From NCBI GenBank assembly GCA_017403285.1, contig JAFQOI010000101.1:1-64000 (forward strand): a DNA stretch of 64,000 nt, read 5' to 3'. The notes beneath the pieces are model-generated. The model ran no database searches. It had not been told where the DNA came from and was given only the letters and a program-made list of their open reading frames with translations. Below are positions 40,358-54,166 of this stretch, in pieces; within the stretch, counting starts at the first letter, position 1; each line of letters opens with the position of its first letter. Origin of the DNA: a bacterium (GTDB lineage: Bacteria > Cyanobacteriota > Vampirovibrionia > Gastranaerophilales > Gastranaerophilaceae). The translations under genes were made by a program, and so were the position numbers.

Positions 40358-43300
40358 TTACCTCAAAATAGGGATTGTTCTATATTCGTCAATGCTATCA
40401 TATGTCATATTTGGATTATTCATGTAGCATTTTAGTGCGCTCAGATATGCTTTTGCTGTATCAAGTGCTGTAAAGCAAGGTGTTGAATACATTTCTGCAA
40501 TTGTTCTAATTAAGAACCCTCTATCTTCAGACCCATAACGAACAGAATTATTATTAGTTGTTGGTGTATTAATAATAAAACATAAGTCCTTATTTTTCAT
40601 ATCTCGTTGCATTTTTTTGATATCGAATTTCTCAATTTCTTTTGATTCTATATTGTGTAATTTTAAGAATTTATGTGTTCCTGTTGTTGCAATAAGGTTG
40701 TATCCTAATTCAACAAGAGTTCGCGCAACTTCAACAGAATCTTTTTTGTAGTGATCATTGATTGAAATTAATACATTTCCACGTTCAGTTGATAATTTAT
40801 ATCCAGCGGCTAAGAAGCCCTTTGCAAGTGCCTTATCAAATGAAGTATCAATTCCAAGAACTTCTCCAGTTGATTTCATTTCTGGAGCAAGTGCTGGATC
40901 TATTCTATTCAATTTTTGGAATGAGAAAATAGGAATTTTCGCACATACAAGATTTGTTTTTGGTGCTAATCCTGTTTGATATCCTTGCTCAATTATTGAT
41001 TTCCCCAAGACAGCTCCTATTGCTATTTTTACCATAGGAATATTTGTTACTTTGCTCAAAATAGGAACTGTTCTGGAAGCACGAGGATTTACTTCAATAA
41101 TGTATGCTTGATTGTCTTTCATTACAAATTGAATGTTCATCAAACCTTTTATTTTTAGTGCTCTTGCTATTTTTTCTGTATATGTAATAAGATTTTTTAT
41201 TACTTCGTCTGGAATTGTCTTTGTTGGGTAAAGTGCGATAGAGTCTCCAGAGTGGATACCGGCTCTTTCAACGTGTTCTGTAATGGCAGGAATTAATACA
41301 TTTTCTCCATCAGAAATCGCATCTAATTCTAATTCTGTTCCTTCTATGTATTGGTCAATAAGAATTGGATGTTCGTCAGAAAATTTCATTGCACTTTCAA
41401 TGTAAGAAAGAAGTTCATCTTTGTTATAAACAACTTGCATTCCGCGTCCACCAATAACGTAAGAAGGACGAACAAGCAATGGATAGCCAATTGAATTTGC
41501 GGCTTCAAGAGCTTCTGATTGTTTTTTAATTGCACAACCTTTTGGTTGAGGAATGTTTAGTTCTCTTAAAAGTTGTTCAAATAGTTTTCTATCTTCTGCT
41601 ATATTTATTGACTCAAGAGAAGTTCCAAGTATTCTAATTCCTCTTTCATGAAGTTTTGGTGCAAGATTTATTGCTGTTTGACCACCAAATTGAACCATAA
41701 CTCCTTCGGGATTTTCTTTTTCAATGATATTCATTATGTTTTCTATATGCATTGGTTCAAAGAAAAGTTTATCTGCAACGTCAAAGTCTGTTGAAAGCGT
41801 TTCTGGATTTGAATTCACAATTAATGATTGATAATTGTTGTTTCTAACTTCCCAAGCAGCATGAACAGAACAGTAATCAAACTCAATACCTTGTCCTATC
41901 CTGATTGGACCTGAACCAAGTATAAGTATTTTCTTTTCATTAGAATCTGAATTTGTTTCATCAACTTCATTATATGTTGAATAGTAATATGGTGTTAGTG
42001 CTTTAAATTCTGAAGCACAAGTATCTACTATCTTGAAGGAAGCGCTGATTGAATTATCTTGACGTATTTTTTCTACTTCTTTTAGTGAAAGTTGGCAATA
42101 TTTTGCGATTTCTTCATCCAAGAAACCTTTTTCTTTCGCTTCAAGATATAGTTCGGCAGTTAGATTTTCGCTTTTTAGTTTATTTTCAAAATCTACTAGA
42201 TTTTTGATTTTGTAAATAAACCATTTATCAATTTTTGTAATTTTATTTATTTCATCTATACTGATACCACGATTTAGCGCTTCTGCTACTCTAAAAATTC
42301 TTCTATCGTCTTGAACGTGCAACAGGGCTTTGATTTCTTCTTCGCTACTATCAAGGTGGATACCCCTTAAAAGACCAGTATATTTTGATTCAATTGATGT
42401 TACTGCTTTTTTGAAAGAACTTTCAAAAGTTCTTCCTATAGCCATAACTTCGCCAGTCGCTTTCATTTTTGTGCCTAAAATTCTATCGCCGTGTTTAAAT
42501 TTATCAAAAGGCCATTTTGGTATTTTTGTAACAACATAATCAATTGTAGGTTCAAAAGCGGCAACGGTTTTTTGGGTAATTGAATTTGGAATTTCATACA
42601 AATTATAGCCCACAGCAATTTTGGTTGTGATTTTTGCAATAGGATAGCCAGTTGCTTTTGATGCTAAAGCAGAAGAACGGCTTACACGTGGATTTACTTC
42701 TATAACATAATAGTTACTACTAACTGTATCAAGAGCAAATTGAACATTACATCCACCTTCTATTTCTAATGCTTTTATTATTTTCAATGCGGCATTTCTA
42801 AGCATTTGACATTCTTTGCTTGTAAGCGTTTGTGTTGGGGCAACTACAAAACTATCACCAGTGTGAATTCCTATTGGGTCAATGTTTTCCATATTGCAAA
42901 TCGCAATTGATGTATTATTTGCGTCACGGATTACTTCATATTCAATTTCTTTGTAGCCCGCAATACTTTTCTCAACAAGTACCTGAGAAATTGGGCTTAA
43001 AGACAAACCAGTGTGAACAATTTCTTCATATTCATTAAAGTTATTTGCAATTCCTCCACCTGTTCCCCCTAATGTATAAGCAGGACGTACTATGATTGGA
43101 AATCCAATTGTTTGCGCAAATTTCTTTGCTTCTTCATAATTTGAAACTATATCGCTTTCTGGGATTGGTTCATTAATTTCAAGCATTAAATTTTTAAACA
43201 TTTCTCTATCTTCTGCTTTTTTTATAGAGTCTATTTTTGTCCCAAGAAGTTCAACATTATATTTTTCTAAAATGCCATTTTCATATAATAGAACAGCAAG

Positions 43301-43591
43301 ATTTAATCCTGTTTGACCGCCTAGTGTTGCTATGATTCCATTTGGACGTTCTTTATCTATTATGTATGTTAAAGATTCAATTGTTAAAGGTTCAATATAT
43401 ACTTTATCTGCAATATTTTCGTCAGTCATAATTGTTGCAGGATTTGAGTTTACAAGAATAACTTCAATATTTTCTTCTTTTAGTGCTCTGCACGCTTGTA
43501 CTCCGGCATAGTCAAATTCTGCTGCTTGCCCTATTACAATTGGACCAGATCCAATAACTAATACCTTTTTAATATCTTTATTAAGTGGCAT
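40358..43591 (-). CDS. carB: Carbamoyl-phosphate synthase large subunit
   Basis: Makes carbamoyl phosphate from bicarbonate, ammonia and two ATP for pyrimidines and arginine. The 1077-residue length is standard. Two ATP-grasp halves are seen. The first starts [20 protein letters not shown] and the second (about 555) [20 protein letters not shown]. Each has the [12 protein letters not shown] or [11 protein letters not shown] loop and an [19 protein letters not shown]-type signature. The C-terminal MGS-like domain (about 940-1077) contains [18 protein letters not shown], the allosteric region. It follows the PyrF-CarA gene by 14 bases. Since the fused CarA has a defective-looking glutaminase site, this subunit may be fed with free ammonia. 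Confidence 0.97.
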   Translation of the reverse strand: [1077 protein letters not shown]

Positions 43592-43605: not shown

Positions 43606-45441
43606 CTATATGTTTAGCATTTTCTTTTCTTTTATACTATTAATCCATTTTGTTATTATTTTGTTTGAATCATCTGTTTCTGCGGTTAATTCTGGATAGA
43701 ATTGTATTGTTTTTATTTGAAATTCATTACAGTTTATTCCCTCAACAGTGTCATCATTTAAGTTTTTGTAAGTTATTTCAACATTTTTTGGAATAGAGTT
43801 TTCATCAACTGCATAACTATGATTTTGAGTTGCAACAAAAATTTCTTTTGTCTTCATATCCATAATTGGGTGATTTGTTCCCCTATGTCCATATTTTAGT
43901 TTGTATGTTTTTGCTCCGAGTGCAAGTGATATTATTTGATGTCCTAAACAAATACCAAATAATTTGGTTTTTCCTAAAAGTTTTTTAGTTGTATCAATAG
44001 TTTTAACTGCATCTTCAGGATTTCCTGGTCCGTTTGATATAAGAACTGCATCGACATTTTCTTTCAATATATCTTCTGCTGTTGTGTCAGCGGGGAATAT
44101 TGTAATATTGCAATTAAGGTTTTTTAGGTTTTCAAGAATGCTCTTTTTCATTCCCATATCTATTATTCCAAGATTGACTCCTGTTCCTGCTATTTTCATA
44201 ATTTTATAAGTTGTAACATCAAGAGTTATGTCTTTACTTATACTGTATTGTTTCATTTTTTCTTTTATTTCTGATGTTATTTCTCCTGTTGTAATAACGC
44301 AATTCATTGTTCCGTTATTTCTGATTATTTGAGTCAAGTATCTTGTATCAATACCTTTTAATGCAATGATATTATTTTGTTTTAAATAATCTGTAAGTGG
44401 AAGATAACTTTTATAATGTGATTCATGTTCACACATATTTTTAACAATAAGTCCTTTTGCGTGGATTTTTCCACTTTCGAAATCGTCTTTGTTAATACCA
44501 TAATTGCCAATTTCTGGATATGTTAAAACAATGGTTTGTCCAGCATATGTTGGGTCTGTCAAGATTTCTTGGTATCCAACAAGAGATGTGTTAAAAACGA
44601 TTTCTCCATATGATGTTCCAGATGCTCCTATTGATTCACCTTCAAAAATCATTCCATTTTCAAGAACGAGTTTCCCTTTTGAAGCGGCATAAGATTTATT
44701 CTTAGTTAGAAGAGTATTTTCAATTTCTTCGTGTATCATTTGAATTGCTTTAACTCTGTCTTCTGCTGCAGTTACTGCTCTTCCGATAACTAGATAATCG
44801 GCACCTTCTTTTATTGCTAAACTAGGTGTTGCTAATCTTTTTTGGTCATTTTTATTTGACCAATCAGGACGAATTCCAGGACAAAGAATTTTAAAATCTT
44901 TACCGCAAACTTGTTTGATTTTCTTTGCCTCCCAAACGCTTGCAACAACACCATCAAGACCGGCTTTTTTAGCCATTAATGCTAGGCTTATTGCATATTC
45001 GTCAGGATTATAAGGAACTTTTAATTCGTTTCTTAAAATTTCTGTACTAATACTTGTAAGAACCGTAACACCAAGAATTATAGGATTTTCCTTGCCAAGT
45101 TCTTTTGCAGTTTTTCTTGCTGCCTCTTGTGAAGCACGCATCATTTCTTCTCCACCAGTTGTGTGTATGTTAAAGAAAGATGCTCCATTCCTTATTACAT
45201 TTTCTGATGCTTTTGCAACAGTGTTTGGAATATCGTGAAGTTTAATATCAAAGAAAAACTTAATATTTCTTTCGTTCATGAATTTAAGAATTTCAAGTCC
45301 TTTACCTGTAAAAAGTTGCAATCCAACTTTAAATACTCCAACGTAATCGCTTAGTTCTGTAATTAAAGTTTTTGCTTGTTCAATATCATCAACATCAAGC
45401 GCTAGAACAATTTTTTCTTTGATTTCAGGTCTGATTTGCAT
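43606..45441 (-). CDS. Fusion: orotidine-5'-phosphate decarboxylase (PyrF) and carbamoyl-phosphate synthase small subunit (CarA)
   Basis: One 611-residue chain. Residues 1-240 are PyrF (OMP to UMP), with IVLALDVDD, the catalytic DIKLHD (D65, K67, D70) and the phosphate site VIGRAVTAAEDR. Residues 255-611 are CarA: KGKLVLENGMIFEGESIGA opens its N-terminal domain, and the class I glutaminase part has LISNGPGNPED and the nucleophile C498 in FGICLGHQ. Where CarA has HPE, this protein reads FYPEL: the catalytic His is Tyr582 (codon TAT at 43696-43698), while Glu584 remains. The usual ASPGP after it is also changed to LTAET. No frameshift or stop separates the halves. AGGA precedes the ATG by eight bases. 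PyrF and CarA act at opposite ends of the same pathway. Confidence 0.93.
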   Translation of the reverse strand: MQIRPEIKEKIVLALDVDDIEQAKTLITELSDYVGVFKVGLQLFTGKGLEILKFMNERNIKFFFDIKLHDIPNTVAKASENVIRNGASFFNIHTTGGEEMMRASQEAARKTAKELGKENPIILGVTVLTSISTEILRNELKVPYNPDEYAISLALMAKKAGLDGVVASVWEAKKIKQVCGKDFKILCPGIRPDWSNKNDQKRLATPSLAIKEGADYLVIGRAVTAAEDRVKAIQMIHEEIENTLLTKNKSYAASKGKLVLENGMIFEGESIGASGTSYGEIVFNTSLVGYQEILTDPTYAGQTIVLTYPEIGNYGINKDDFESGKIHAKGLIVKNMCEHESHYKSYLPLTDYLKQNNIIALKGIDTRYLTQIIRNNGTMNCVITTGEITSEIKEKMKQYSISKDITLDVTTYKIMKIAGTGVNLGIIDMGMKKSILENLKNLNCNITIFPADTTAEDILKENVDAVLISNGPGNPEDAVKTIDTTKKLLGKTKLFGICLGHQIISLALGAKTYKLKYGHRGTNHPIMDMKTKEIFVATQNHSYAVDENSIPKNVEITYKNLNDDTVEGINCNEFQIKTIQFYPELTAETDDSNKIITKWINSIKEKKMLNI

Positions 45442-45447
45442 TTTTAT

Positions 45448-46722
45448 TTATCCTATGTTGTATATTTTACCGTTTATAATTGTCATTTTAACTCTACCTT
45501 TCAATTCCATTTTATCGAAAGGAGAAATTCTACATTTTGATTTAAATTTAGAAGCATTTACTGTGTAAATTTCTTCTAAGTCAATAACTGCAAGATTTGC
45601 TTTTGCTCCAAGTCTTATGTCTCCTTGGTTTTCAAGGTTTAAAATTCTTGCTGGATTTGCCGTTAACTTTCTAACGGCATCAATTAATGAAAGTTTACCG
45701 TTGTTTACAAGATAATTTAGTGTAATAGACATTGCTGTTTCAAAACCAGCAATGCCCATAGGAGCTTGTTGTATTGGATTTTGTTTTTCTTGTACTGTGT
45801 GTGGAGCATGGTCTGTTGCAATAACATCTATTGTTCCATCTTTTAATCCTTCTACTATTGCATCCAAGTCTTCTCTTGTTCTCAATGGAGGATTTACCTT
45901 GTATTTTGCATCGTAATCTTTTATATCGTCTTCTGTTAAACTGAAGTAGTGAGGTGCTGTTTCGCAAGTTATGTTTAATCCGTCTTTTTTTGCTTGTCTT
46001 ATTAATTCAACTGAACGTTTTGTTGAAATATGAGCAAAGTGATATTTACCATTTGTAGCTCTTACTACTTCAAGTTCTCTTGCTACTGCTAAAGATTCTG
46101 TTACTGAAGGAATTCCTTTTAATCCAGATAATGTACTAACTTTTCCTTCATTTATAACTCCTGAATTTGCTAGTGAAGAGTCTTCCGAGTGAGAAATGAT
46201 TAATGAATTATGAGAGTTAATATATTTAAGTGCTTCTCTCAAAAGATGCATATTCTCAAGCGGTTTTCCGTCATCAGAAAAAGCAACAGCGCCTAATGAA
46301 ATAAGTTCTGATATATTAACTATTTTTTCTCCCTTTAACTCTTTTGTTACTGCGCAAATCGGATGAAAGCCTATTTTCGCAGTTTCTTTTGCTTTGCTTA
46401 TGCAATAGGTCAAAGTTGTTGCATTGTCAACTGTTGGGTTTGTATTTGCCATAGGGCAAATTGCTGTATAACCGCCATTTATAGCAGATAAAATCCCAGT
46501 TTTAATTGTTTCTTTTGCACTAAAGCCAGGTTCTCTTAAATGGCAATGCATATCAATAAGTCCAGGAATTATTATTTTCCCAGAAAGATCAATAACATCT
46601 TCATTTGTCTGTGGCTGCAAGTTCTTTTCTATTGCAACTATAGTGTCGTTTTCTATTCTTAAATCAGCATAATCCTCAAAATTATTTTTAGGGTTTACTA
46701 TTTTTGCATTTTTTAAAAGCAT
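45448..46722 (-). CDS. pyrC: Dihydroorotase
   Basis: Third step of UMP synthesis: cyclises carbamoyl aspartate. The 424-residue protein is a type I (long) dihydroorotase of the amidohydrolase fold. The metal motif DMHCHLREPGFSAKET is at about 57-72 and TAICPMANTNPTVDN follows. Histidines in AHISTKRSVELI and TCETAPHYFSL are present, and DVIATDHAPHTVQEK carries the catalytic Asp. It is a complete enzyme, not the inactive PyrC-like partner of ATCase. GAGGGG lies before the ATG, which directly follows the pyrB stop codon. Confidence 0.96.
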   Translation of the reverse strand: MLLKNAKIVNPKNNFEDYADLRIENDTIVAIEKNLQPQTNEDVIDLSGKIIIPGLIDMHCHLREPGFSAKETIKTGILSAINGGYTAICPMANTNPTVDNATTLTYCISKAKETAKIGFHPICAVTKELKGEKIVNISELISLGAVAFSDDGKPLENMHLLREALKYINSHNSLIISHSEDSSLANSGVINEGKVSTLSGLKGIPSVTESLAVARELEVVRATNGKYHFAHISTKRSVELIRQAKKDGLNITCETAPHYFSLTEDDIKDYDAKYKVNPPLRTREDLDAIVEGLKDGTIDVIATDHAPHTVQEKQNPIQQAPMGIAGFETAMSITLNYLVNNGKLSLIDAVRKLTANPARILNLENQGDIRLGAKANLAVIDLEEIYTVNASKFKSKCRISPFDKMELKGRVKMTIINGKIYNIG

Positions 46723-47634
46723 TTACCCCTCACTTCCTTTTAATATGGTATTTAATATTGCCATTCTTACATATACTCCATTTTGTGCTTGTTCAAGAAT
46801 GGTTTTTCCAACTTGATTATCTAAGAGTTCTGATGATACTTCAATGTTTCTATTGGCAGGACCTGGGTGCATTAAAATAACATCATCTGCCGCATATTTT
46901 TTTAAAAGTTTTGTATCAATTTCATATAGTCTTTTATATTCTGATGAATCAGGATATCCTTCTTTTTCGTGTCGTTCATTTTGAACTCTTAATACCATTA
47001 CTACATTTGCTCCATCAATTGCTTCTTGTACCTCGTTATGGTATCTCACATTAAATGCGGTTTTGTTTTCAAATTGCAAATATGTAGGTGCACAAAGATG
47101 AATATCTGCACCAAATTTGGAAAGTAAACTTATATTTGATTTCGCTACTCTGCTATGAGAAACATCGCCGATTATTGTTATTTTTTTATTTTCAATGTTC
47201 CCTATTTTTTCTAGCATTGTATAAAAATCTAAAAGTGCTTGAGATGGATGTGCGTGTGTTCCATCACCACCATTAACAAAGTGCATATTGTATTTAACTT
47301 GCTTCATTACATTGTTTATAATCCCAGAGAAGGAATGTCTTATTACAACAGCGTTAACACCTAAGAAGTATAAATTTTCTATTGTATCTTTTAAACTTTC
47401 ACCTTTTGCAAGTGAAGAATGTGCCGCATCAAAGTTAATGATGTTCATATTTAGTTTTTGTGCGGCAATTTCAAAACTACATCTTGTTCTTGTTGAATTT
47501 TCATAGAACATTAAAGCAAGAGTCTTCTTTTCTACGTCGGATTTTTTTGTTCCATTTTTAAATTCTTTTGCAAGATTTATGATATTTAAAATTTCTTGAT
47601 TTGAAAGACTTTGAATATCAATTAAGTGCTTCAT
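46723..47634 (-). CDS. pyrB: Aspartate carbamoyltransferase catalytic subunit
   Basis: Second step of UMP synthesis: joins carbamoyl phosphate to aspartate. The 303-residue chain has the carbamoyl-phosphate motif FYENSTRTRCSFEIAAQKL (STRTR), the mobile-loop sequence SSLAKGESLKDT, GDGTHAHPSQALLDFYTM (HPxQ) and HPGPANRNIEVSSE, all intact. No regulatory subunit gene (pyrI) is adjacent, so an unregulated trimer like that of Bacillus is likely. The ATG overlaps the pyrE stop by one base (TAATG), giving strict coupling. Confidence 0.97.
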   Translation of the reverse strand: MKHLIDIQSLSNQEILNIINLAKEFKNGTKKSDVEKKTLALMFYENSTRTRCSFEIAAQKLNMNIINFDAAHSSLAKGESLKDTIENLYFLGVNAVVIRHSFSGIINNVMKQVKYNMHFVNGGDGTHAHPSQALLDFYTMLEKIGNIENKKITIIGDVSHSRVAKSNISLLSKFGADIHLCAPTYLQFENKTAFNVRYHNEVQEAIDGANVVMVLRVQNERHEKEGYPDSSEYKRLYEIDTKLLKKYAADDVILMHPGPANRNIEVSSELLDNQVGKTILEQAQNGVYVRMAILNTILKGSEG

Positions 47635-48212
47635 TATGCTTTTACCTTTTCTTCGCCTCTGCTACCAGGTTTAACAAGTTCAATGCCTTCTCTGCATAAA
47701 GGACAATCTGTTGGTTCATATACAACTGGGTCTATTTGAAGTAATGATTTTATGTTGTATTCTGTTTTTCCTTTCGTTCTGTCAACGATACACCCAACCG
47801 CAACGACTTCAGGTTCAAATTCTTTGATTGCTTCCATTGTTTCTTTGATTGTTCTAGCAGTTGTAATAACGTCTTCAATAATAACAACTTTTTCACCTTT
47901 TTTTAGTGTGTAACCACGTCTTAACTGCATTTCTCCATCTTTTCTTTCAACGAAAAGATTTCGTTTTTTTGCTTGTTTTGCAGTTTCGTATCCCATAATT
48001 ACTGCCCCAATTGCAGGTGCAACAATTGTATCAAATTCAATATCGGATAATTTTTCTGCAAGTCTTTTTCCTAATTCTTCAGTTATATCAGGATATTGAT
48101 ATAATTTAGCGCATTGAAAATATATATCAGAATGAAGTCCTGATGTTAAACAAAAATGACCATGCAGTACCCCTTCAGCTTTTTCTAATAAATTTAATAC
48201 TTCGTTTCCCAT
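47634..48212 (-). CDS. pyrE: Orotate phosphoribosyltransferase
   Basis: Fifth step of UMP synthesis: orotate plus PRPP gives OMP. The 192-residue protein has FCLTSGLHSDIYFQCAKLYQ near the start, APAIGAVIMGYETAKQ, the flexible loop FVERKDGEMQLRRGYTLKKG, and the PRPP motif VVIIEDVITTARTIKETMEA. The C-terminus has a paired-cysteine group (DCPLCREG), seen in the subfamily common in Gram-positive bacteria and cyanobacteria. GAGGGA precedes the ATG and overlaps the pyrD stop. Confidence 0.96.
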   Translation of the reverse strand: MGNEVLNLLEKAEGVLHGHFCLTSGLHSDIYFQCAKLYQYPDITEELGKRLAEKLSDIEFDTIVAPAIGAVIMGYETAKQAKKRNLFVERKDGEMQLRRGYTLKKGEKVVIIEDVITTARTIKETMEAIKEFEPEVVAVGCIVDRTKGKTEYNIKSLLQIDPVVYEPTDCPLCREGIELVKPGSRGEEKVKA

Positions 48213-48213
48213 T

Positions 48214-49128
48214 TTATTCCCTCAATTTCTTTTTTAATTCATCTAAATCTTTAAATCCATTTTTATTAATGTATTCTTCAAGTTCAAAAACCAATTTTTC
48301 AGCAGTTTCTGGATGTGTAAAATTTGCTGTTCCAATTTGAACTGCTTCTGCCCCTGCTGCTAAAAATTCTAATACATCTTCAAGAGTTTCAATTCCTCCA
48401 ATTCCTATAATGGGGATGTCTAAAACTTTATAAAGTCGACATATTGCCCCAATTGCAACTGGTTTTATTCCTATCCCAGAATATCCACCTTGAACAATTG
48501 TTTTCTTGAATTTCCCATTAACTAAGTCTATTTTTATCGATGTTCCTTTTAATGTGTTGATGGCACTAACGGCATCTGCTCCTGCTTTTTGTGCGGCAAG
48601 TCCAAGTGCTTCAATTGATGTAACATTTGGAGTGAGTTTTATAATTAAAAATCCTTTATACTCATTTCTTACAGCGCAAACAAGTTCATATAATGATTTT
48701 TCATCCGTTCCAAATTCTAAACATCCAGATTTTACGTTTGGACAAGATACATTGAGTTCAATTGCTTTGATATTGTTTTTATTACAAAATTTTGCAACTT
48801 GAACATATTCATCTAGTGTCGAACCAGCTAAGTTCATCACAAAATTTATATTATTACTATTTAATTCTTTTACTTTTGTTTCCAAAAATTTTTCAATGCC
48901 GACATTTTCAAGTCCTATTGAATTTATCATTCCTGCTTTTGTTTCGGTAATTCTTAAATGTTTATTTCCTGCTCTAGGGAATAGAGAGATTGCTTTCGTA
49001 ACGATTGCTCCAAGTTTTGAAACATCTATAAATTCGTTAAATTCACTGGCATATCCATAAGTTCCAGAAGCAGTCATTATAGGGTTTTTTAATTCAAAAC
49101 CATTAAATTTTACGTCTAATTTCCCCAT
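48214..49128 (-). CDS. pyrD: Dihydroorotate dehydrogenase, class 1B catalytic subunit
   Basis: Fourth step: oxidises dihydroorotate with FMN. The 304-residue protein starts KLDVKFNGFELKNPIMTASG and holds LNVSCPNVKSGCLEFG, where the catalytic base Cys of class 1 enzymes is in the NVSCPN...SGC region, and IGIGGIETLEDVLEFLAAGA near the FMN phosphate site. An adjacent pyrK marks class 1B, the NAD-linked heterotetramer. GAGG lies four bases before the ATG within the end of pyrK, overlapping it by 13 bases. Confidence 0.96.
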   Translation of the reverse strand: MGKLDVKFNGFELKNPIMTASGTYGYASEFNEFIDVSKLGAIVTKAISLFPRAGNKHLRITETKAGMINSIGLENVGIEKFLETKVKELNSNNINFVMNLAGSTLDEYVQVAKFCNKNNIKAIELNVSCPNVKSGCLEFGTDEKSLYELVCAVRNEYKGFLIIKLTPNVTSIEALGLAAQKAGADAVSAINTLKGTSIKIDLVNGKFKKTIVQGGYSGIGIKPVAIGAICRLYKVLDIPIIGIGGIETLEDVLEFLAAGAEAVQIGTANFTHPETAEKLVFELEEYINKNGFKDLDELKKKLRE

Positions 49129-49865
49129 ACTACCTCATTTCCATTAAAAACGGGACCATCCTTACAAACTGTTTGATTTATTATTTTGCCGTCTTTTTTT
49201 ACGTCGATTACGCATCCTCTACATACACCAATTCCGCATGCCATAACTTTTTCCATTGCAACTTGTACTTCAATCCCATAATTTTGGGCGAATTCTGAAA
49301 CCATTTTTAAAACTATATGTGGTCCACAGGCATATATTACTTCTGGACTTAATTCATTGATTAACACTCCTAAATAATTAAGTACGCTACCTTTTTCTCC
49401 GTATGAACCATCGTCAGTACAAGTTTTGTCAATAATCATTCCTTGTGGGATTTCATCTTTATTTAAAAATCCTGCTACATAATAATTTTCTATATTTTGT
49501 TCATCCAATTTTGATTTCAGATAAGCAATAGGGGCTGTTCCGATACCTGCCCCAATTAATAATGCTTTTTTATTTTTTATGTCAAATCCGTTTCCGAAAG
49601 GTCCCGCTATATCAATAAAATCTCCAACATTTAAAGATTTAATGTATTTTGTTCCTTTCCCTCTTTCTTTAAATAGAATGCCAATTTTTCCATTTTCATT
49701 TGCATAAACACTAAATGGTCTTCTTAATGTTAATCCATCACAATAAATGGAAATAAATTGTCCTGCTTTAACTTCTACTTTGTTTTTACATTCAATTTCA
49801 ATGAAATAAGAACTTGCGCTTACTTTTTCTATTTTATTAACTTTTGCTTTATGTATTTTTTTCAT
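49116..49865 (-). CDS. pyrK: Dihydroorotate dehydrogenase electron-transfer subunit
   Basis: FAD and [2Fe-2S] subunit that passes electrons from PyrD to NAD. The 249-residue protein has the FAD-binding FISIYCDGLTLRRPFSVYAN (RxYS-like), the NAD region ALLIGAGIGTAPIAYLKSKL and a cluster loop MACGIGVCRGCVIDVKKDG with its fourth Cys in VCKDGPVF. It is the first gene of the pyr operon. Its leader contains a terminator at 49894-49928 and a short peptide gene, so its expression should depend on read-through. Only a weak ribosome site precedes the ATG. Confidence 0.95.
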   Translation of the reverse strand: MKKIHKAKVNKIEKVSASSYFIEIECKNKVEVKAGQFISIYCDGLTLRRPFSVYANENGKIGILFKERGKGTKYIKSLNVGDFIDIAGPFGNGFDIKNKKALLIGAGIGTAPIAYLKSKLDEQNIENYYVAGFLNKDEIPQGMIIDKTCTDDGSYGEKGSVLNYLGVLINELSPEVIYACGPHIVLKMVSEFAQNYGIEVQVAMEKVMACGIGVCRGCVIDVKKDGKIINQTVCKDGPVFNGNEVVWGN

Positions 49866-49893: not shown

Positions 49894-49928
49894 AAAAAAA
49901 GAGAAAAGCTCAATTGCTTTTCTCTTTT
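49894..49928 (-). terminator. Attenuator-type terminator in the pyr operon leader
   Basis: A perfect 13-base inverted repeat (49916-49928 with 49897-49909) with a six-base loop is followed on the minus strand by seven T (49894-49900, part of the arm included). It lies between the pyr promoter and pyrK. Its 5' arm overlaps the stop codon of the leader peptide. A second copy of AAAAGAGAAA (49939-49948) can pair with the 3' arm as an antiterminator. Confidence 0.85.
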
Positions 49929-49965
49929 AACAAGTATATTTCTCTTTTATCAAATAATGTTTCAT
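49927..49965 (-). CDS. Putative pyr leader peptide, 12 residues
   Basis: ATG at 49965, seven bases after AAGG, opens a 12-codon frame, MKHYLIKEKYTC, whose TAA ends at 49927 inside the first arm of the terminator. The predicted transcription start (about 49980) leaves a leader of only some 14 bases, so this is the first thing translated. A ribosome following close behind the polymerase would cover the arm and stop the hairpin from forming, as in the E. coli pyrBI and pyrE leaders. The peptide itself need not have a function. Confidence 0.6.
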   Translation of the reverse strand: MKHYLIKEKYTC

Positions 49966-49986
49966 GACTTTACCTTATTTCTTTCT

Positions 49987-50015
49987 ATTATCTGATTATT
50001 AGAAAGTAAAGTCAA
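49987..50015 (-). promoter_or_regulatory. Promoter of the pyr operon
   Basis: On the minus strand TTGACT (50010-50015), a 17-base spacer and GATAAT (49987-49992). Ten of twelve bases match the sigma-70 consensus. Confidence 0.75.
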
Positions 50016-50128
50016 ATAAAAAAGAAACTATTTTACAAATAAAAATAATTACACTTTTTTTTCTACTATTTGGGGATTCTAAAAAGTTAAATTTTTGGTA
50101 ACCTTTCTGAAAAAAGAAAGGAAATTAC

Positions 50129-51689: not shown

Positions 51690-52940
51690 TTAATAATTTT
51701 TTAATCTAACATCTGCTGCAAGTTTATGAGCAAAAAGACCTTCTCTTTCTGCAAGTAATGATGCATTTTTTGCTGTTTCTTGTAGCGCATTACTATTTAT
51801 AATCTGGTATGTTTGAATTTTTATATAGTCGAAAACGCTAAGTCCACCAGAATATTTTGCTACTTGATTTGTTGGAAGAGTATGATTTGTTCCTGAAACA
51901 TAATCTCCAAAAACTTCTGCACTGTAGTTTCCTATAAATAATGACCCGTAGTTCGTAAATTTATCAATGTATTGTTCTTTGTTATTAAAACAAAGTTCAA
52001 GGTGTTCTGGTGCTTTTTTGTTAGAAAGGTTAATTGCGTCTTCTATAGATTCTGCAACAAGAGCGAAAGACTTACTGTAAGATATTTCCGCAATATCTTT
52101 TGTTGGAAGTTCTTTTAAATATTCTTGTGCTTTTTTATCAACCTTTTTTGCAAATTCTTCGGATAAACAAATAAGAAATGCACGAGCATCTTTATCGTGT
52201 TCGCATTGTGCTAACATATCAGCAGCAATGAACTCAGGATTTGCATTGTCATCTGCTACGATTAAAACTTCTGATGGACCTGCTAAAAAGTCTATTCCGC
52301 ATTCTCCGAAAACCTGTTTTTTTGCAGATGTAACAAACTTGTTGCCAGGTCCGACAATTTTGTTAACCTTTTTTATAGTTTCTGTTCCATAAGCCATTGC
52401 TGCAATTGCTTGAACTCCTCCAATTTGATATATTTCATCTGCGCCAGATAGGTATGCAGCGGCAACTGTTACTGGTTGAATTTTTGGAGACATTGCAATT
52501 ATTCTTTTTACGTCTGCAACTTTGGCTGGAACTATTGTCATAATTGCGCTACTTGGAAGTGGATAATTACCGCCAGGGATATAGCATCCAACTGAGTCAA
52601 GTGGTACAATTTTATGCCCAAGAGTATTTCCATTAATAGAAACTTCAATTTCTTTTATGCTGTTGATTTGTGCTTTCGCAAATTCTCTTATATTGTTTAT
52701 TGCAAATTTTATTGTTTTGATTGTTTCTTCATCAACTTTAGCAATCGCTTCAGCAATTTCATCTTCCGATAGTCTAAATGATGTTAAATCCCCATCTCCA
52801 AATTTTTTCGCATATTCCCTTATAGCACTGTCACCGTTTTTTCTTACCGCATTTATGATTTCAGAAACAGATACAATACTTTCAAATTCTATTTTTGAAA
52901 AAAAACTTTCATCTAAATCTTTATATTTGATAATTTTCAT
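51690..52940 (-). CDS. hisD: Histidinol dehydrogenase
   Basis: Last two steps of histidine synthesis, oxidising histidinol to histidine with zinc and NAD. The 416-residue protein has VGCYIPGGNYPLPSSAIMTI, GGVQAIAAMAYGTETIKKV, VGPGNKFVTSAKKQVFGECG and FLAGPSEVLIVADDNA, which together form the family signature. The zinc and catalytic residues in AQCEHDKDARAFLI and NHTLPTNQVAKYSGGLSVFD are present. AAGGA stands seven bases before the ATG, which overlaps the stop of the HisA-HisI-HisE gene by one base. Only these his genes are in the window. Confidence 0.96.
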   Translation of the reverse strand: MKIIKYKDLDESFFSKIEFESIVSVSEIINAVRKNGDSAIREYAKKFGDGDLTSFRLSEDEIAEAIAKVDEETIKTIKFAINNIREFAKAQINSIKEIEVSINGNTLGHKIVPLDSVGCYIPGGNYPLPSSAIMTIVPAKVADVKRIIAMSPKIQPVTVAAAYLSGADEIYQIGGVQAIAAMAYGTETIKKVNKIVGPGNKFVTSAKKQVFGECGIDFLAGPSEVLIVADDNANPEFIAADMLAQCEHDKDARAFLICLSEEFAKKVDKKAQEYLKELPTKDIAEISYSKSFALVAESIEDAINLSNKKAPEHLELCFNNKEQYIDKFTNYGSLFIGNYSAEVFGDYVSGTNHTLPTNQVAKYSGGLSVFDYIKIQTYQIINSNALQETAKNASLLAEREGLFAHKLAADVRLKNY

Positions 52941-54166
52941 TATTTTGTCCTTGATGCTAAGTTACTGATTATATCTTGAGGTGTGATATTGTGAAGTGCC
53001 ATAAATGTAAGCATATGGTATGCTAAGTCACTCGCTTCCCACTCAAGTCCGTCACCTTGTTCAAAGTTTACAGATTCAAAGGCTTCTTCCATTACTTTTC
53101 TTTTTAAATAGAATTCATTTTTAAATAATTTTGTTGTATATGAACCTTCTGGTAATTTTTCTTTTCTATCAAGAAGAAGATTATATAGTTCATTAATGCA
53201 AAATTCTCTGTCTTCAAAGCAAGAATAACGTCCAGTGTGGCAAGCGTTACCTTTTTGACGTACTTTGAATAAAAGAGTATCCATATCGCAATCAAATTTT
53301 GCGCTAATTAGTGCTTGTGTATTACCTGAAGTTAAACCTTTTGTCCAAAGTTCATTTCTAGATCGGCTCCAATAAGTTGCAAGTCCTTCAGATAAGGTTT
53401 TTCTTAAAGAATCTTTGTTTGAATATGCAAGCATCAACACCTGTTTTGTATCTATGTCTTGAACAATTGTAGGAATTAAGCCATCTTGCTTATCAAAGTC
53501 CATAACAGCAATGTATGCATCTTCAAGTTTTACTGCACCAGTGTATATGCACATACCTAACTGTGTTGATACGTTTATTTTATTGAGGGCAACGATTTCA
53601 TCAATAGTTGAAATTCCGCCTGCGGCGATAAGTGTTTTTTTAGTGATTCTACGAATTTTTTTAATTGCTTCAATGTCAGTTCCACCCATCATTCCTTCTT
53701 TATCAACAATGGTGTATAAATAACCTGCACACAAATTATCAAAGCGTTTAACATAATCTTCAGGAGTTGCTTCAACTTCTTTTGTCCAACCTTCAGTTGT
53801 AACTTTTCCTTTTTTTGCATCAATTGCTACAAGCACTTTGTCTTTTGGTAATTTTGATAAAAATTCTTCGTTTGCCGCTGTTCCAATTATGATTTGTTTT
53901 GCTCCATTTGCAAGAATTCTTTTTGCTTTTTCTTTGTCTCTTATTCCGCCACCAACTCTACAATGGGCAACTTTGCAAATTTCTTTTATTAATGCTTCAT
54001 TGTCACCTTTATTCATCGCTGCATCTAAATCAATTACGCTGATTTCACCAAAGCGAGAATAATATTTTGCAAGTTCTAAAACATCTTCTCTTTCAAGTAC
54101 TTTTTCTTTTCCTTGTTTTAACTGTACTGCTTTCCCATCCATTAAGTCTATACTTGGAATAATCAT
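52940..54166 (-). CDS. Fusion: HisA isomerase with HisI cyclohydrolase and HisE pyrophosphatase
   Basis: A 408-residue protein covering three steps of histidine synthesis. Residues 1-230 are HisA (ProFAR isomerase): MIIPSIDLMDGKAVQLKQG has the catalytic Asp8, and LIAAGGISTIDEIVALNK is the second phosphate loop. Residues 230-330 are HisI (PR-AMP cyclohydrolase): QVLMLAYSNKDSLRKTL, then KFDCDMDTLLFKVRQKGNAC and HTGRYSCF with the metal ligands. Residues 330-408 are HisE (PR-ATP pyrophosphatase): FYLKRKVMEEAFESV and WEASDLAYHMLTFMALH. No internal stop or frameshift is seen. HisI-HisE fusions are common; joining HisA in front is unusual. AAAGGG precedes the ATG. Confidence 0.94.
   Translation of the reverse strand: MIIPSIDLMDGKAVQLKQGKEKVLEREDVLELAKYYSRFGEISVIDLDAAMNKGDNEALIKEICKVAHCRVGGGIRDKEKAKRILANGAKQIIIGTAANEEFLSKLPKDKVLVAIDAKKGKVTTEGWTKEVEATPEDYVKRFDNLCAGYLYTIVDKEGMMGGTDIEAIKKIRRITKKTLIAAGGISTIDEIVALNKINVSTQLGMCIYTGAVKLEDAYIAVMDFDKQDGLIPTIVQDIDTKQVLMLAYSNKDSLRKTLSEGLATYWSRSRNELWTKGLTSGNTQALISAKFDCDMDTLLFKVRQKGNACHTGRYSCFEDREFCINELYNLLLDRKEKLPEGSYTTKLFKNEFYLKRKVMEEAFESVNFEQGDGLEWEASDLAYHMLTFMALHNITPQDIISNLASRTK

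Follow-up and report, generated by a model that had tools for sequence, protein, structure and literature searches.

A leader reading frame that ends at a terminator hairpin suggests ribosome-position attenuation of the UMP operon in gut relatives of cyanobacteria

The stretch of 64,000 nucleotides analysed here (the window) carries on its minus strand a cluster of pyrimidine genes in the order pyrK-pyrD-pyrE-pyrB-pyrC-(pyrF-carA)-carB, the full path to UMP (Table 1). The original prediction had placed an attenuator in front of a complete UMP operon, and profile matches from pyrK through carB identify just such an operon. The best equivalog for its first gene, pyrK, is the dihydroorotate dehydrogenase electron transfer subunit, with a score below the strict cut-off. 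Two of the enzymes, PyrF and CarA, are fused into a single 611-residue ORF. Elsewhere in the window, a 408-residue ORF (52940..54166) resembles a HisA-HisIE fusion, judged by its sequence alone.

Table 1. Coordinates of the operon and leader features in the window.
Feature	Position	Strand	Evidence or detail
pyrK, first gene of the operon	49116..49865	minus	NF000798, 163.7 of 219 bits, below the strict cut-off
pyrD (class 1B)	48214..49128	minus	NF005574, above cut-off
pyrE	47634..48212	minus	TIGR01367, above cut-off
pyrB	46723..47634	minus	NF002032, above cut-off
pyrC	45448..46722	minus	TIGR00857, above cut-off
pyrF-carA fusion	43606..45441	minus	NF001273 (residues 7-242) and TIGR01368 (residues 257-604), both above cut-off
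carB	40358..43591	minus	NF003671, above cut-off
TGTAAA box upstream of promoter	50032..50037	minus	possible activator or promoter element
Promoter, TTGACT - 17 nt - GATAAT	49987..50015	minus	TTGACT 50015..50010, GATAAT 49992..49987
Shine-Dalgarno AAGG of leader ORF	49973..49976	minus	sequence
Leader ORF, 12 codons, MKHYLIKEKYTC + stop	49927..49965	minus	ATG at 49965, TAA 49929..49927
Terminator hairpin, 13 bp, loop AATTGA (6 nt)	49897..49928	minus	arms AAAAGAGAAAAGC / GCTTTTCTCTTTT
Terminator T run	49894..49900	minus	first four bases also paired in the stem

Ahead of pyrK, the minus strand holds every element that had been predicted from the letters: a promoter, an AAGG site, a 12-codon ORF, a 13-bp hairpin and a T run. 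The stop codon had been placed inside the 5′ arm, and the stem indeed begins at the second base of the leader's TAA. The hairpin has a polypurine 5′ arm and a polypyrimidine 3′ arm and folds at -17.7 kcal/mol (z -2.8), a stability reached by 0 of 200 shuffles. Hairpin and T run stand 31 nt ahead of pyrK, whose ATG is at 49865. Because the gene upstream of the leader is divergent, the terminator does not serve that neighbour. An Rfam scan returned only a tRNA above threshold, and in a permissive scan of the leader all matches stayed under their gathering scores.

Taken singly, several of these elements are unremarkable. The promoter scores 10 of 12, a match within chance on its own (20 seen versus 20.3 expected in 4 kb), and 12-codon ORFs are not rare by chance in DNA of 31% GC. 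The case therefore rests on comparison, and the combined layout is beyond chance because it recurs across pyrK upstream regions. Most relatives retain TTGAC and ATAAT. Two further motifs lie around the promoter. A near-perfect inverted repeat, TTTAAGTATTAT-TGGTCAG-ATAATACTTAAA, spans the promoter and its -10 box in close relatives (L002-L006, L008); it is only partial in the window and missing from many other leaders. Further upstream, all but one of 34 leaders from the genus (33) have a TGTAA/TGTTA box, which lies 72-74 nt from the leader ATG where the distance was recorded. Over the relatives as a whole, the TGTAA box sits some 72-76 nt ahead of that ATG, and in genera g55, g56 and g59 it takes the form of an imperfect palindrome, TGTWA-N7-TTACA. 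Palindromes resembling it are found, in small number, in other intergenic regions. The box is possibly an activator site or a general promoter element.

For the comparison, pyrK upstream regions were gathered at three levels: genus, family and order. The close relatives are metagenome-assembled genomes of Candidatus Gastranaerophilales, Avigastranaerophilus among them. A script recovered a short ORF with a U-tailed hairpin after it in 106 of 116 regions, spread over three families (f1, f6 and f7) and 18 genera. Four of the remaining ten regions are truncated by contig ends, two have a leader displaced beyond the fetched stretch by repeats, and in the last four the hairpin fell under the purine filter yet is visible by eye. 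The leader layout is thus kept in at least 18 genera of these gut relatives of cyanobacteria. A Shine-Dalgarno match of at least 3 nt to AAGGAGGT precedes the ORF in 100 of the 106 leaders. In some relatives (e.g. L017, L067, L123 and L130), the ORF passes through the stem with no stop at its foot. In the stretches read from families f2 and f3 and from outer class members, pyrK-like genes occur without the leader; the f2 and f3 pyrB is also distant, at about 30% identity. Whether relatives keep the leader ORF, the place of its stop and the hairpin had been proposed as a test; they do so across all three leader-bearing families, lending support to the predicted translation-coupled attenuator.

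Spacing downstream of the hairpin is variable. Several same-genus genomes (L011, L016, L028, L037, L040, L043 and L047) carry a partly tandem repeat (GCGTAGGGTGAAATCGAGCGAAGCGAGTGAACCCGAAGT...) between the leader terminator and pyrK. The idea that ribosomes ending at the leader stop reinitiate on pyrK was considered and dropped because the hairpin-to-pyrK spacing is not conserved: it ranges from 12 to about 270 nt, with repeats inserted. At the short extreme, in genus g56 and some others, the hairpin lies only 12-15 nt from the pyrK match. Such a gap leaves no room for a later promoter; in g56, where the hairpin ends 12-14 nt short of the match, pyrK is therefore reached only by readthrough.

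The hairpin arms covary. Within the genus, 9 of 14 stem pairs changed on both sides, and pairing held in 95.7% of cells versus 74-78% when the arms were slid against each other. None of 1000 shuffles of 3′ arms among sequences matched the observed covariation. The arms are also compositionally unusual when set against the lineage's gene-end terminators: purines make up 92% of the 5′ arm in leaders versus 72%, and U makes up 74% of the 3′ arm versus 49% (p 6e-9 on genus means). The purine richness of the 5′ arms may have a different origin.

The stop codon lies close to the stem, beginning a median of 1 nt before it. Genus medians are 1 nt in about half of the genera and at most 11 nt in nearly all. 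The gene-end terminators of the lineage, taken as controls (n=43) out of some 460 kb in eight genomes, lie a median of 17 nt from the stop codon (p 2e-6 versus leaders). This difference bears on the idea that the leader is a gene in its own right, encoding a small protein and closed by the hairpin, and that pyrK is served by a separate downstream promoter. Promoter, Shine-Dalgarno site, ORF and terminator do stand in the order of a complete gene; nevertheless, ordinary genes stop farther from their terminators, the gap before pyrK is minimal in several genera and the peptide lacks visible selection, and we regard this explanation as barely credible. In E. coli, bringing a stop codon closer to a terminator, so that 5 bp and not 28 bp lay between them, lowered termination from about 90% to <10% (PMC4824070). 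Terminators only a few nucleotides from a stop are silenced there by the ribosome, and termination becomes complete only beyond about 27 nt (PMC4824070). In amino-acid attenuators, >20 bp separate the terminator from the stop of the leader (PMC4824070). With its stop abutting the stem, the leader therefore fits a pyrBI kind of logic and not the amino-acid kind.

The reading frame is conserved where the peptide is not. Start codons were chosen by Shine-Dalgarno match, blind to the position of the stop. A stop earlier than the stem foot minus 9 interrupts the leader frame in 18 of 106 cases versus 68 and 77 for the other two frames. With starts chosen in this way, 72% of leaders have their stop near the stem foot (genus mean 56%), and dinucleotide shuffles place it there in about 20%, averaged over genera. 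These figures weigh on the suggestion that the hairpin terminates constitutively and in part, doing no more than fix the expression level, with an ORF of little importance. Short ORFs do arise by chance in AT-rich DNA, and the shuffles show that some stops near the foot would be expected anyway. However, leaders exceed that expectation, their frame is kept open and their stop sits at the foot across separate lineages; we hold this account improbable.

Codon-level comparison separates frame from product. Within the genus, leader pN/pS is 0.88 versus 0.25 for pyrK, in which no 9-codon window exceeds 0.67; elsewhere, the leader values of single genera span 0.73-1.36. Leader peptides are unrelated between genera and contain no single-amino-acid runs, and with peptides varying this freely, no conserved control codons for any one amino acid were found in the leaders. 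An open frame and a stop in its place persist as the peptide changes, and so it is translation itself, not the peptide, that is conserved. This pattern supports a device that reads the position of the ribosome and argues against an arrest peptide, against control codons and against a small protein with a function of its own. Stalling at given codons, or metabolite binding by the nascent peptide, might still be imagined to decide termination, as a short leader peptide does precede a terminator and KIEY is frequent in the peptides of the genus. Given the near-neutral, unrelated peptides, a stop-terminator gap of about 0 here versus the >20 bp of amino-acid attenuators (PMC4824070) and the lack of a conserved competing helix, we judge such a mechanism very improbable.

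The competing helix was itself part of the original prediction, in which a second copy of AAAAGAGAAA would pair with the 3′ arm as an antiterminator. The second copy is present (49948..49939; chance p 0.0075 in this leader), but the role assigned to it was rejected: the copy is peculiar to this one sequence and without counterpart in relatives, whose leaders showed no excess complementarity of this kind.

Is the unit specific to pyrimidine genes? We scanned 861 kb from several related genomes, containing 125 intergenic terminators. The unit stood before pyrK in both of the two genomes whose pyrK fell within the scanned stretches, and no other genuine leader unit turned up in these 861 kb, the only further candidates being artefacts. 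A candidate at L144 proved to be the end of a normal 79-residue ORF, and one at L143 an out-of-frame ORF within a gene end. In the window's own genome, no unit lies upstream of the matches to uracil permease, UPRTase (upp) or CTP synthase (pyrG).

Bacillus subtilis offers a familiar case of a pyr operon, pyrK among its genes, that is controlled by attenuation; the PyrR protein and its RNA hairpin are required there. The present operon resembles that system in being preceded by a probable attenuator and in containing pyrK, and differs from it in that neither PyrR nor its hairpin was found in the leader-bearing families. A PyrR profile (NF003549) gave no match above cut-off in these families; it passed the cut-off in 3 of 98 genomes, all of f12, another family of the class, and a single weak hit (78.5 bits) came from genome G051. 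The PyrR binding hairpin (RF00515) was found in 0 of 58 genomes, the window's own included, by a search that detected its controls. The earlier reading that no PyrR is present thus extends to both the gene and its RNA site, which argues against PyrR control of the leader.

We consider it probable that the leader is a ribosome-position transcription attenuator in which a UTP-driven polymerase race controls the whole UMP operon. Transcription would begin just after 49987. By default, the terminator (49928..49894) would end most transcripts ahead of pyrK. A ribosome on the leader stop would cover the 5′ arm, so that no hairpin forms and polymerase continues into the UMP operon. That a ribosome so placed would block the stem follows from the geometry together with the E. 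coli experiments, and by this analogy ribosome control of termination is the expected behaviour of the leader. Timely arrival of the ribosome would amount to a race against RNA polymerase, with polymerase speed presumably the deciding variable. At low UTP, polymerase would be slowed in the A/U-rich leader, chiefly in the roughly 20 nt of U-rich 3′ arm and tail; the ribosome would win and the operon would be expressed. With ample UTP, polymerase would get ahead and the hairpin would terminate transcription.

This scheme depends on polymerase being held back. Ribosomes seldom catch polymerase within the first 100 bp unless it pauses (PMC4824070), and the scheme therefore requires a polymerase pause in the leader. 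An upstream U-rich pause tract was not found: between leader ATG and hairpin, the longest U run is 3 nt in the window and 2-3 nt in 79 of 106 leaders. Reiterative transcription at a start-site U run, as in pyrBI, was rejected, as no such run follows GATAAT. The U-rich stretch of the leader is instead the terminator's own 3′ arm and tail, roughly 20 nt. In the leaders of most genera, an A/T motif near ATTGAATATA ends about 8 nt ahead of the hairpin foot; a motif of this kind lies closer than in shuffles in 14 of 17 other genera, in differing reading frames. On this thin evidence, the motif could serve as a polymerase pause signal.

UTP is proposed as the signal read by the leader because it is the natural signal for a pyrimidine operon. 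If UTP is sensed, the simplest place would be the U-rich 3′ arm and tail, at the moment when the ribosome closes on the stop. The terminator itself would then be the UTP sensor, its polypyrimidine 3′ arm replacing the pause tract of pyrBI, in a minimal attenuator of roughly 100 nt that originated in Melainabacteria; we offer this whole reading tentatively, as a possibility somewhat short of an even chance. A ribosome-gated attenuator might also sense translation capacity or growth rate, readthrough being set by initiation on the leader and by traversal speed. All of the structural evidence would fit such a sensor equally well, as would the missing U tract upstream of the hairpin and a peptide specific to no amino acid. 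A general sensor, however, would be expected elsewhere too, whereas the unit stands only ahead of the pyrimidine operon in the sampled sequence, and its 3′ arm is far U-richer than these genomes' other terminators. We therefore think growth-rate sensing unlikely, and favour the UTP-driven race.

Among known systems, the closest comparison is pyrBI (pyrL) of E. coli and Salmonella, which shares a Shine-Dalgarno site and leader ORF after the promoter, an intrinsic terminator ahead of pyrimidine genes, a translating ribosome that reaches the terminator and the absence of a dedicated regulator. However, pyrL has 44 codons with the hairpin inside the ORF, 88 nt after the ATG, whereas the present leader has 12 codons and a stop at the stem foot. 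In pyrL, moreover, a U-rich tract precedes the hairpin, whose 3′ arm is rich in G; here there is no upstream tract, the 3′ arm is U-rich and the controlled genes are the whole UMP operon. E. coli rph-pyrE also has a terminator after the stop of a translated upstream ORF and before a pyr gene, but that ORF is the full gene rph (truncated in MG1655, its stop 37 nt before the hairpin) and not a 12-codon ORF encoding a peptide without visible selection. As read from its layout, the leader supports ribosome-position attenuation of the pyrBI/pyrE kind in a compact, new form.

The open-access literature searched yielded no description of pyr attenuation for this lineage. When a 2010 survey was made, leader-peptide attenuators were known in Proteobacteria and Actinobacteria alone, and the survey extended the list to Firmicutes (PMC2965389). 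The present leader suggests that pyrimidine attenuation gated by the ribosome also occurs outside the Proteobacteria. It also separates the act of translation from the peptide product, with an ORF that stays open while its peptide drifts. The leader most likely serves to raise pyrimidine synthesis at low UTP, and uncultured gut bacteria without PyrR thereby gain a concrete, testable rule for the control of UMP synthesis.
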